A stretch of 64,000 nucleotides of DNA from Acidobacteriota bacterium (GTDB taxonomy: Bacteria > Acidobacteriota > Terriglobia > Acidiferrales > UBA7541), in NCBI GenBank assembly GCA_003223245.1, contig QHYI01000104.1:88532-152531 (forward strand). The letters run 5' to 3'. Both the position numbers and the translations under genes were made by a program. The notes beneath the pieces were generated by a model, which had not been told where the DNA came from, did not search any database, and worked only from the letters and a program-made list of their open reading frames with translations. Numbering within the stretch: the stretch's first letter is position 1; every line of letters starts with the position of its first letter. This document shows positions 200 through 5,782 of the stretch, piece by piece.

Positions 200-1006
200 G
201 TGGAAACCTCGACGGTTTCGCCGCGGCTTGCCATCATTCAGCTGCACCCGATCAAGTCGCTCGACCCGGTGCAGGTCAAGGAAGCGCGTGTCGGCCCTGG
301 CGGCGGGCTGGAATTTGACCGCGCCTGGGCTCTCTACTCCGGCGACGGGCAATGGGTGAACGGCAAGCGCACTGCGGCGGTTCACCTAATTCGTGCTGCG
401 TACGCCCCGGACCTCAGCTCCGTCACGCTTTCTGTTCCCACGAATCGCGGCAGCACTCCCACCAAGACGTTTGACTTTCCGGGCGGCTCGGCCGATGCCG
501 CACAATGGTTCAGCAAGTTCTTCGACCAACCCATTACGGTGCGTTATTCTCCCGAAGGTTTTCCTGACGACACCGTCGCCAATGGCCCTACGATCATCTC
601 CACCGCGTCGCTCGACGCGATTGGCACCGTATTCCCCGGGCTCACCGTCAGCGATATGCGCCTGCGTTTTCGCACCACGCTGGAAATCGATGGCGTACCG
701 GCCTTTTGGGAAGACCAGCTTTTCGCCGCAGACAAGAATGTTCTCGTGCCGTTTCGCATCGGCGAAGTGCAGTTCGAGGGCAGCAATCCCTGCGTGCGCT
801 GCCCTGTCCCTCCGCGCAATCCGCAAACCGGGGCAATCATTCCTGGCTTTCAGAAACTCTTTTCCGACTATCGCCGCAGCCACATCCCGAACTGGACTCC
901 CGAGGCGCGCTTCGACCATTACTACCTCCTAGCCACGAACACGCGCGTCGCCAAGTCAGAGGCCGGCAAGGTCCTCCGCGTCGGAGACCCGGTTGTAGTT
1001 GGCTGA
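200..1006 (+). CDS. MOSC domain-containing protein
   Basis: The 268-residue product has the layout of MOSC proteins with an N-terminal beta-barrel domain: an N-terminal strand region (residues 9-45, with HPIKSLDPV) and a C-terminal MOSC core ending in GKVLRVGDPVVV. The conserved cysteine of the family, which in MOSC proteins and mARC-type enzymes binds sulfur or molybdenum cofactor, is probably the one in the NPCVRCPVPPRNPQTG motif (about residues 195-210). The exact substrate cannot be read from sequence. The start is taken as GTG at 200; no strong ribosome-binding site is visible. It stands alone between the partial membrane gene and the convergent HEPN cassette. Confidence 0.85.
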   Translation: METSTVSPRLAIIQLHPIKSLDPVQVKEARVGPGGGLEFDRAWALYSGDGQWVNGKRTAAVHLIRAAYAPDLSSVTLSVPTNRGSTPTKTFDFPGGSADAAQWFSKFFDQPITVRYSPEGFPDDTVANGPTIISTASLDAIGTVFPGLTVSDMRLRFRTTLEIDGVPAFWEDQLFAADKNVLVPFRIGEVQFEGSNPCVRCPVPPRNPQTGAIIPGFQKLFSDYRRSHIPNWTPEARFDHYYLLATNTRVAKSEAGKVLRVGDPVVVG

Positions 1007-1039
1007 ATCAGACAAACTTCGGATTTGGTTTCAGTCTCT

Positions 1040-1387
1040 TTACAGAGGGAGGATGGCCTTTTTTATCGCATCCAATTTATGTTGCGCGATAATGGTGTCC
1101 TTCTGGTTAAAAACAACCGGCGGCTCGTACCGCGCGGTGCGGCTCTCATTTAGCAAATCCCGGTAATCCCGACGAATCCGCTTCAATTTTGCGCTTCTTT
1201 CTACGTAAGTGAGACGAGCGGCATGCGTTGGCGGGTGGACACCCAAAGTTGCCAAATAGGCATCCACATATTGCAACGCGGAATAAAATATCCCGGTCAG
1301 TTTCCAATCAAAGAACGGATTATCCGTGGACTGTGCGAAGAACTCGTTGTGTTGCGCTCGTGCGAGATGGTCGTCCTTGCTGGGCAA
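1040..1387 (-). CDS. HEPN-domain protein, last gene of a three-gene cassette
   Basis: The 115-residue, mostly helical product resembles small stand-alone HEPN proteins, with a DDHLxxAxHNExF opening (residues 5-17), a hydrophobic helix around FFDWKLTGIFYSALQYVDAY and a basic central helix rich in Arg and Lys. The R-x4-6-H motif of RNase-active HEPN toxins is not present, so nuclease activity is doubtful. The start is a TTG at 1387 preceded by GAGAGG about eight bases upstream. It lies six bases downstream of the nucleotidyltransferase-like gene, which suggests one transcript. HEPN partners of nucleotidyltransferases are usually toxin-antitoxin or defence components; that role is an inference here. 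Confidence 0.7.
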   Translation of the reverse strand: MPSKDDHLARAQHNEFFAQSTDNPFFDWKLTGIFYSALQYVDAYLATLGVHPPTHAARLTYVERSAKLKRIRRDYRDLLNESRTARYEPPVVFNQKDTIIAQHKLDAIKKAILPL

Positions 1388-1393
1388 AACGCA

Positions 1394-1783
1394 TCACCTC
1401 TCAAACACAATTTTGCCCACCTTGCTAATGAGGTCGTCAAGCCTGCGATTCATTCTAGCTAGAACGTGAAAATCAAATCTCACACCAGGATAGATCGCCA
1501 TGATTTCTTCTTCTCGAGCATAAACCTTGTCTCGAATCGCTGCATCGCGCTCATTAACAACAGAGATCACGCGAAACTCGCCATCCGCGTTGCGCTCAAC
1601 GATAACTGCTTCGATTTCGGGAACCAGAGACAATTCAATTTGAAGGCATGCCTCTATGCTGAATATGGGCCTGCTCGAGACAGACGGGCGTTGCGGTTCC
1701 ACGTTAACAACTGCGCTTTTCTCGCTGCTAAAGAACGGAAAAGCGGACGCGGCTTGGTTGTTCCAATTGGTTGTTTCAATCAT
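1394..1783 (-). CDS. Nucleotidyltransferase-like protein paired with HEPN, probably inactive
   Basis: The 129-residue product has a variable N-terminus (1-45) and a compact C-terminal half with an alternating pattern: a helix (SIEACLQIELSLVPEI), paired strands (EAVIVERNADGEFRVISVVN), a helix rich in charged residues and a final strand FDFHVLARM. This order suggests a nucleotidyltransferase fold, but the GSxARG signature and the D-x-D metal pair are missing, so catalysis is unlikely. Its start overlaps the stop of the upstream small gene in an ATGA arrangement, and the HEPN gene follows after six bases. The family assignment is inferred from pattern and partner; a plain hypothetical protein is the alternative. 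Confidence 0.6.
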   Translation of the reverse strand: MIETTNWNNQAASAFPFFSSEKSAVVNVEPQRPSVSSRPIFSIEACLQIELSLVPEIEAVIVERNADGEFRVISVVNERDAAIRDKVYAREEEIMAIYPGVRFDFHVLARMNRRLDDLISKVGKIVFER

Positions 1784-1989
1784 GCTCTTTTTTTCAATTG
1801 ATCGGGGACGTCTGTCGCCACAACGTTGGATGCATTCACCATGTACATGGGATCACCGTTCGGGAGGTACTCGTCCAGTCTAATAACGCTCGCAACCACC
1901 GCTTTCATTCGGAGTTTTGTGCCGTCGGCGAGAATGTAGGTATTCCACTTTTCGCCGCCATCTGGCTCGAAATCAACTTCTTCTCCCAT
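1780..1989 (-). CDS. Small beta-rich hypothetical protein, first gene of the HEPN cassette
   Basis: A 69-residue product (81 residues if the upstream ATG at 2025 is used). The ATG at 1989 is preferred because GGGAGAG lies just upstream of it, while the ATG at 2025 has no site at a proper distance. The body (KWNTYILADGTKLRMKAVV, then a strand ending MYMVNASNVVATDVP) reads as a small beta barrel or sheet. I do not recognise the family well enough to give a function. It overlaps the nucleotidyltransferase-like gene by four bases, so translation of the two is probably coupled. The region 1990-2215 upstream should carry the cassette promoter. Confidence 0.6.
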   Translation of the reverse strand: MGEEVDFEPDGGEKWNTYILADGTKLRMKAVVASVIRLDEYLPNGDPMYMVNASNVVATDVPDQLKKRA

Positions 1990-2215
1990 AATTTCTCTCC
2001 CGCCGATATTGTACTTTTTCTTCATCGGGGGAACGGCAATCTCCTTTGTTGATTTGAGCCTGCAATAAGTATCACACAGAACAGCAGCCGTGCAATGAGA
2101 ACGTCGTACCGCTCATCCTGCTCGTAAGGGCACCTGTCTTTTGTCGCTTGAGCCCAGAACGTGGCCCGCTCTTTCCTACGGCACGAGTTCGGAAAACAAC
2201 TAACTGAAGGAGGAA

Positions 2216-4170: not shown

Positions 4171-4992
4171 CTAAGCGGCGGTAGTATCCGCCTCGGAGGA
4201 ACTTCCTTCCAACTGTCGAAGAATCTCGCGCAGAGTCGAAATCAGCTCGTCGCGCGAAACATGGCTCTTCTTGAATTGAATCCGGAACTTGAAGGTTTCG
4301 CTCGGCGGCTCAAATTGAAAGATGAACGGCCTCGGGCGCTGTGGTCCAGTTTTCTCTTGCCGGCGCTCCCGCCGCGCTTCGTCGCGAGTCAATCCGCCCT
4401 GCAGAATGCGCTGAAACATCTCGACCATTTTCTTCTCCGTCGGTTGCCGCGCAATCTGCAGCAGAAGCGATTTTGAACTGATTCCGTGATCCATGCATCT
4501 CCTACGCAGCGATTCCGGAATGTTCCGCAGCGAAAGCGTCTCCGTCACCGAAGAACGCGCCCGCCCGATTTTCTTCGCGATGTCCTCGTGCGTGTACTCA
4601 AACTGCGTGCTCAGTCGGTGCAAACCCTCCGCTTCTTCAAACGGCGTCAGGTCTTTGCGCTGGATATTTTCGATCAGTCCCAGCTCCAGCGTCTCCGCGT
4701 CGTCGGCCATTTTCTCGATGCACGGCACCTCGCGCAATCCCGCCGTGCGCGCCGCATGGTATCGCCGCTCCCCCGAGATGATGTAGTAGCAGTCTTCGCG
4801 CGGCACGTAGCGCACCAGCAGCGGCTCCAGCACGCCTTTCTCGCGCACCGATTCGGTCAGCTCGCGCAAATCCCCCAGCGCTTTGCGCGGCTGGTCCGGG
4901 TTCGGGCGAATCTGATCCAGCCGGATCATCCGTCCGACCGCCGCCCCGCTGTAGCTTGTTAGCGATTCTACGTAGTGCGCGTCATGCCGCAT
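4171..4992 (-). CDS. parB: Chromosome partitioning protein ParB
   Basis: A 273-residue ParB/Spo0J-type protein. The CTP-binding N-terminal domain is seen in IRLDQIRPNPDQPRK and SGERRYHAARTAG (GERR box), then ENIQRKDLTPFEEAEGL and a helix-turn-helix (EDIAKKIGRARSSVTETLSL) that binds parS. The C-terminus is a charged dimerisation region. The ATG at 4992 is chosen because it gives a normal length and overlaps the end of parA by 11 bases; longer versions would run far into parA. With ParA it segregates the replicated origin region. No convincing parS site is seen in the window. Confidence 0.93.
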   Translation of the reverse strand: MRHDAHYVESLTSYSGAAVGRMIRLDQIRPNPDQPRKALGDLRELTESVREKGVLEPLLVRYVPREDCYYIISGERRYHAARTAGLREVPCIEKMADDAETLELGLIENIQRKDLTPFEEAEGLHRLSTQFEYTHEDIAKKIGRARSSVTETLSLRNIPESLRRRCMDHGISSKSLLLQIARQPTEKKMVEMFQRILQGGLTRDEARRERRQEKTGPQRPRPFIFQFEPPSETFKFRIQFKKSHVSRDELISTLREILRQLEGSSSEADTTAA

Positions 4993-5782
4993 CTTCAGCG
5001 TGACTGGCAACCCGATCCTCTTCGACACGTTGGATAACCTCCCCCGCAAGCTTCTTGTACTCGACGGCCCCGGGCGATTTCGGTGCAAACGTAAAAATTG
5101 TTTCCTTGTACGCCGGACTTTCTTCGAGCCTCACGTTCTTGGTGATTTTCGTTTTAAACAGCACTTCGCCGAACACGCTGCGGATTTGTCCGTGCGTGTC
5201 CTTGGAGATGTTCGTCCGCTTGTCGTACAGCGTGATCACCACGCCGAGCACTTTCAGCCCGGGATTCGGCCGCGCGCGAATGCGCTCGTACGTTTCCAGA
5301 AGATCGTCCGTGCCTTCGATCGCGAAATACGCCGCCTGGATCGGAACGAGCAAATGCGTCGCAGCCACCAGCGAATTCACGGTCAAAATCCCGAGCGAAG
5401 GCGGAGTATCGACGATCACGTAGTCGTAATCCTTTTCCACCGGCGACAGCGCATCTTTCAGCCGGAACGGCGCGTCAAATTGTCCCGCGAGTTGTTGTTC
5501 CAGCTTCGCCAACGCCAGCCGGCCGGGGCACAAAAACAGGAGTGGATCCTTCGTCGGTTTGATGACCGTGGCAATTCCCACCCGGCTGTCGCTCAGCACC
5601 TCGAACATCGAAGAGGAAATTTCTCCTGCGTCATAAAAGGCGATGGTGGTATTTGCTTGGGGATCGAGATCGATGAGGAGGGTTTTCTTTTCGCGATTGG
5701 CCAGCGCCGCTGCCAGATTAATTGCAGTTGTTGTCTTGCCTACGCCACCTTTTTGATTCGCAATCGTGATGATGGCAGTCAT
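4982..5782 (-). CDS. parA: Chromosome partitioning ATPase ParA
   Basis: A 266-residue Walker-type ATPase of the ParA/Soj family. The deviant Walker A motif KGGVGKTTTAINLA (residues 11-24) is complete, with the signature lysine before GVGK, and the second nucleotide-binding region is seen in LLIDLDPQANTT and YVIVDTPPSLG. ParA moves ParB-parS complexes using ATP-dependent DNA binding. The ATG at 5782 is preceded by a modest purine-rich stretch. It is the first gene of a parA-parB pair with overlapping ends. The 265 bases upstream, to the small ORF at 6048, should hold its promoter. Confidence 0.95.
   Translation of the reverse strand: MTAIITIANQKGGVGKTTTAINLAAALANREKKTLLIDLDPQANTTIAFYDAGEISSSMFEVLSDSRVGIATVIKPTKDPLLFLCPGRLALAKLEQQLAGQFDAPFRLKDALSPVEKDYDYVIVDTPPSLGILTVNSLVAATHLLVPIQAAYFAIEGTDDLLETYERIRARPNPGLKVLGVVITLYDKRTNISKDTHGQIRSVFGEVLFKTKITKNVRLEESPAYKETIFTFAPKSPGAVEYKKLAGEVIQRVEEDRVASHAEDAA

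Follow-up and report, generated by a model that had tools for sequence, protein, structure and literature searches.

The cassette and its insertion site

On the minus strand of the window, i.e. the whole 64,000-nucleotide stretch of Acidobacteriota DNA analysed here, lies a cassette of three short genes: a beta gene (2025..1780, 81 aa), an ORF for a nucleotidyltransferase (NTase)-like protein (1783..1394, 129 aa) and an ORF for a HEPN-like protein (1387..1040, 115 aa, with a TTG start). A four-base ATGA overlap (1783-1780) joins the first ORF to the second and a six-base gap (1393-1388) separates the second from the third, so that the coordinates bear out the same-strand arrangement described in a first-pass annotation of this DNA. 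The beta gene was there assigned 69 residues, corresponding to a start at 1989; we place its start at 2025, because relatives align from the resulting N-terminus and the structural model puts two confident strands there. All three are genuine genes, organised as an operon. Their identical order in five other loci (L012, L013, L015, L017 and L018), together with low dN/dS in close copies (0.09-0.49 across all three genes, indicating purifying selection), argues against a chance arrangement. Searches of Pfam, NCBIfam, PADLOC and PHROGs gave zero above-threshold matches for the three proteins of the window, and the three profiles retrieved nothing relevant from the sequences of the PDB. The L017 copy has an in-frame stop in its HEPN gene, which may be an error, its contig being low-coverage by its own title.

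The cassette occupies an insert (1007..2215) between a MOSC gene (200-1006, plus strand) and a Fer4/NuoI-like gene (2710-2216, minus strand). These two conserved genes are about 1.2 kb apart in the window, compared with 36-563 nt in ten same-genus genomes; in some others of this comparison the MOSC gene lies outside the fetched stretch. The alignment to relatives is lost near 990 and picked up again near 2150-2190, the cassette has a GC content of 49% where the window has 58%, and 35 genomes of the same genus lack HEPN. Around the insert we saw neither a clear terminal repeat nor a clear target-site duplication. The site is variable: the MOSC to Fer4 gap likewise exceeds 1.1 kb in two further members of the genus (L076 and L083), which may mark it as a hot spot for insertions. 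It may also lie close to a replication origin, since ORFs that we take, from reading their sequences, to be ParB-like and ParA/Soj-like are found about 2 kb away (4171-5782). More widely, HEPN is sparse, occurring in 4 of 297 genomes of an Acidobacteriota sample, 17 of 292 of a cyanobacterial sample and 8 of 301 of a Chloroflexota sample, and searches of plasmids yielded no useful relative of the module. The module is thus both mobile and sparsely distributed.

The HEPN protein

Taken alone, the HEPN protein of the window scores below the cut-off for PF05168 (13.5 bits, cut-off 22). PF05168 is matched by 6 of 18 of its relatives (best 1.4e-6), and an alignment of the family profile to canonical HEPN-T proteins encoded at other loci reaches E=2e-5; both results support the earlier description of the third gene as HEPN-like, and on this profile evidence the protein belongs to the HEPN-T (PF05168) branch. 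The profile alignment equates His55 with the conserved His, and Arg86-Tyr87 with the conserved Arg-Tyr, of canonical HEPN-T, and these positions are invariant in a family alignment of 44 diverse sequences. The R-x4-6-H motif, already reported missing from the window's protein, is absent throughout this alignment. The first-pass annotation, noting this, supposed that the HEPN protein would be inactive. However, in a survey of the HEPN superfamily PF05168 proteins often lack the motif His and have a conserved His elsewhere, and toxicity is reported for HEPN toxins lacking the motif (PMC3710099), whilst Class II HEPN/MNT toxins are also without RX4HXY (PMC7641770). The missing motif is accordingly a trait of the branch and no sign that this copy has been inactivated, and inactivity is unproven. 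His55 and Arg86 may instead form an alternative catalytic site, for which Csm6-2, whose paired Arg and His are widely separated along the chain, offers a precedent (PMC11229360). One genome that carries the module (L115) also encodes a fusion of a HEPN-T domain to a canonical, GSx10DxD-bearing MNT, and contains 16 PF05168 matches.

The MNT-like protein

The model of the middle protein, for which pLDDT mostly exceeds 90 over residues 36-129, has a helix-strand-strand-helix-strand order followed by a short end. Nine of the twelve best Foldseek matches (ranks 2-5, 7-9, 11 and 12, comprising 7aer, 5yep, 1no5, 8xeo, 7ae2, 6m6v and 8xeh) are MNT chains of the HEPN-MNT type, with probabilities of 0.97-1.00 but E-values no better than 2e-3 to 1.4e-2. 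Close behind them come ferredoxin-like domains, such as the C-terminal domain of MamM, and comparison with canonical MNT profiles gave no sequence-level link. These last two results would suit a protein unrelated to MNT, i.e. a ferredoxin-like antitoxin or adaptor that makes up, with HEPN, a toxin-antitoxin pair of independent origin. We consider this unlikely, given the preponderance of MNT chains among the best matches and the position of the gene, which is exactly that of an MNT gene beside HEPN. Descent of the middle protein from an MNT is, on the strength of the modelled fold, likely, though not proven as long as sequence profiles do not connect the two.

MNTs carry, between strands 1 and 2, a G-loop with the motif GSX10DXD (PMC11586414). 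In the middle protein these strands (57-64 and 70-76) are joined by five residues, too few to form a G-loop. GS-x8-13-DxD was not found in 32 relatives of the protein, and a looser pattern picked out a single GT variant (L067), apparently fortuitous, whose start lies within the first helix. As judged from the model and the sequences, the nucleotide-binding loop has been deleted and the protein should for that reason be incapable of AMPylation. The first-pass annotation, which saw the outline of an NTase fold with its catalytic residues gone, is in this respect consistent with both the Foldseek matches and the modelled link. That the cassette is a classical AMPylating (type VII) HEPN-MNT toxin-antitoxin pair, as gene order and folds might suggest, is hardly credible in view of so short a link and of the absence of GSx10DxD from all 32 relatives.

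A further possibility, favoured by the first-pass annotation, is that the HEPN and MNT-like proteins are both non-catalytic and form, with the third protein, a binding or sensing complex, acting for example as an RNA or nucleotide sensor, a regulator or a scaffold. It is true that both classical catalytic motifs (GSx10DxD and R-x4-6-H) are absent, as that annotation had stated, and that the G-loop is deleted. Nevertheless, residues that coincide with those of canonical HEPN-T are retained without exception over 44 sequences, and toxicity is on record for motif-less HEPN toxins (PMC3710099); we therefore think this explanation rather improbable.

Pairing of the MNT-like and HEPN proteins

A position-blind iterated profile search of the 1983 ORFs of the fetched loci converged on 26 middle proteins, every one of which (26/26) is encoded directly upstream of HEPN; as the loci had been fetched via HEPN, this figure describes what adjoins HEPN and does not measure how frequent the middle protein is on its own. 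The 26 members come from Acidobacteriota, Chloroflexota, Cyanobacteriota, Bacteroidota and phages, the Bacteroidota protein being linked by profile comparison (probability 91). Middle proteins of Nostocales have the same position and size with no clear profile link, and that of Thermus is recognised by position only. The MNT-like/HEPN pair thus travels as a unit in four phyla and in phages, in keeping with the proposal that this is a derived module. The third protein is not a fixed part of the module and is elsewhere replaced by unrelated proteins or by none.

An exchangeable third component

The model of the window's beta protein (pLDDT 89) is all-beta, with five strands, and a fold search of the PDB and BFVD found no match for it at E<=0.001. 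The same protein is the third component at six Acidobacteriota loci. In Nostocales and Thermus phages its place is taken by a protein of 71-103 aa from another family, and at four loci by one of 208-235 aa, among which that of L006 alone matches TIGR04255, weakly and below the cut-off. At the remaining module loci none of the three third-protein families was found, and pairwise profile comparisons between these families were negative.

A search of 347 genomes of the phylum with the beta protein identified four more genomes in which it has no adjoining HEPN. In two of them, both on the minus strand (L163, 980-1752, and L164, 866-1752), the beta gene is followed by a small ORF and then by a gene for a RelE-family protein, identified by PDB matches of 1.2e-5 and 4.7e-7; the L163 beta copy is 47% identical to that of the window. 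In the third (L165, minus strand, reverse-complement 1378-2640) it is followed by ORFs of 153 and 170 aa, which may represent a third module type, and the fourth locus (L166) is partial. The third component is therefore exchangeable, and RelE-type modules use the beta protein too, a revision of the first-pass annotation, which had listed it simply as a third protein of this cassette. The order beta, second gene, RelE mirrors the order beta, MNT-like, HEPN, which supports the assignment of the MNT-like protein as putative antitoxin and of HEPN as putative toxin. A lone relative of the beta protein, accompanied by neither a HEPN nor an MNT-like partner, is encoded close to a probable terminase gene of a phage contig (L178, 3917-4207).

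Phage, prophage and CRISPR neighbourhoods

In Thermus phage Tsatsa the third gene, the middle ORF and HEPN lie between a LexA-like regulator and an integrase, in a region containing HEPN for which a role in prophage defence has been proposed (PMC11437467). The arrangement recurs in two viral contigs, where a 324-aa ORF precedes it and an integrase comes next, and the copy in a Microcystis phage abuts an integrase. Acidobacterial copies occur near terminase genes (L015 and L018) or near a gene for a resolvase-family recombinase (L002).

At each of the Nostocales loci (six of six) a type III-D CRISPR operon ends with Csx21 and then the module; for L126, PADLOC identified Cas10, Csm3, Csx10, Csm2, Csx19 and Csx21 in this operon. 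This placement raises the possibility that the module serves type III CRISPR systems as an ancillary effector. However, in an order-wide sample only 2 of 29 Csx21 loci carry it, other lineages have it in phages, prophages or ordinary chromosomal sites, and its proteins showed neither a CARF nor another second-messenger domain; the module is not consistently linked to type III operons, and the ancillary role is very improbable. A general CRISPR function was set aside, the linkage being optional and limited to one Nostocales subgroup. In L123, one of the six type III-D genomes (L123-L128), a CARF-nuclease-like gene lies upstream as well. Searches of open-access literature yielded no account of the arrangement, either of HEPN with the third-protein families or of HEPN in the Nostocales III-D setting.

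Proposed function

The reading that we prefer, with modest confidence, is of a mobile, toxin-antitoxin-like defence module made up of a HEPN effector, a non-enzymatic antitoxin of MNT fold and an exchangeable third component. HEPN would act on RNA, either through the alternative His/Arg site or by RNA binding, and the MNT-fold protein would restrain it by direct binding, with no AMPylation. The beta protein, encoded first, might aid folding or stability of the antitoxin, by analogy with TAC systems (PMC9098466), or might sense the trigger. The order of MNT-like gene and then HEPN gene is that of HEPN-MNT toxin-antitoxin pairs (PMC3710099), and the phage, prophage and CRISPR neighbourhoods point to phage defence, which would be the selected function. 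Counting against this interpretation are the missing classical RNase motif, the moderate MNT fold matches and the presence of the module in only 2 of 29 Csx21 loci.

More tentatively, and with some doubt, the cassette could represent a widespread, undescribed tripartite family, in which an MNT pseudo-enzyme, its nucleotide-binding loop excised, acts as antitoxin to a HEPN-T toxin, an exchangeable third protein is common to different toxin types (HEPN and RelE), and the whole serves prophages and type III-D CRISPR loci as a plug-in unit of defence. If this is right, the MNT fold can work without catalysis, making binding versus AMPylation directly testable, and a third component moves between unrelated toxin types. 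The occurrence of the module in phages, prophages and type III-D loci makes it a concrete candidate for a phage-defence module missed by current defence libraries.

Comparison with known systems

HEPN-MNT pairs are reportedly a very abundant type of toxin-antitoxin system, and their known mode of neutralisation is enzymatic AMPylation. With the type VII pairs (HepT/MntA of Shewanella and the HEPN-MNT of Legionella) the cassette shares its gene order and the best fold matches of the middle protein, an MNT-fold gene lying directly upstream of the HEPN gene, with the fold match moderate; unlike them, it has a HEPN protein without RX4HXY and an MNT-like protein without the AMPylation motif. HEPN/MNT Class II systems (PF05168/PF01909, PMC7641770) similarly combine a PF05168-branch HEPN lacking RX4HXY with an MNT-fold gene directly upstream, but Class II MNTs retain GSX10DXD, whereas the family described here has lost the G-loop and often includes a third gene.

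TAC systems (PMC9098466) are also tripartite operons, in which a toxin-antitoxin pair is joined by a third partner. Their third protein, however, is a SecB-like chaperone encoded last, whereas the beta protein of the window is encoded first and has no known fold match; a SecB-like protein after the toxin-antitoxin pair is not found here. The putative prophage defence region of Tsatsa and IN93-like prophages (PMC11437467) contains a member of the same HEPN family, a middle ORF and a third gene, although the published account names HEPN only and the third protein comes from a family other than that of the window.
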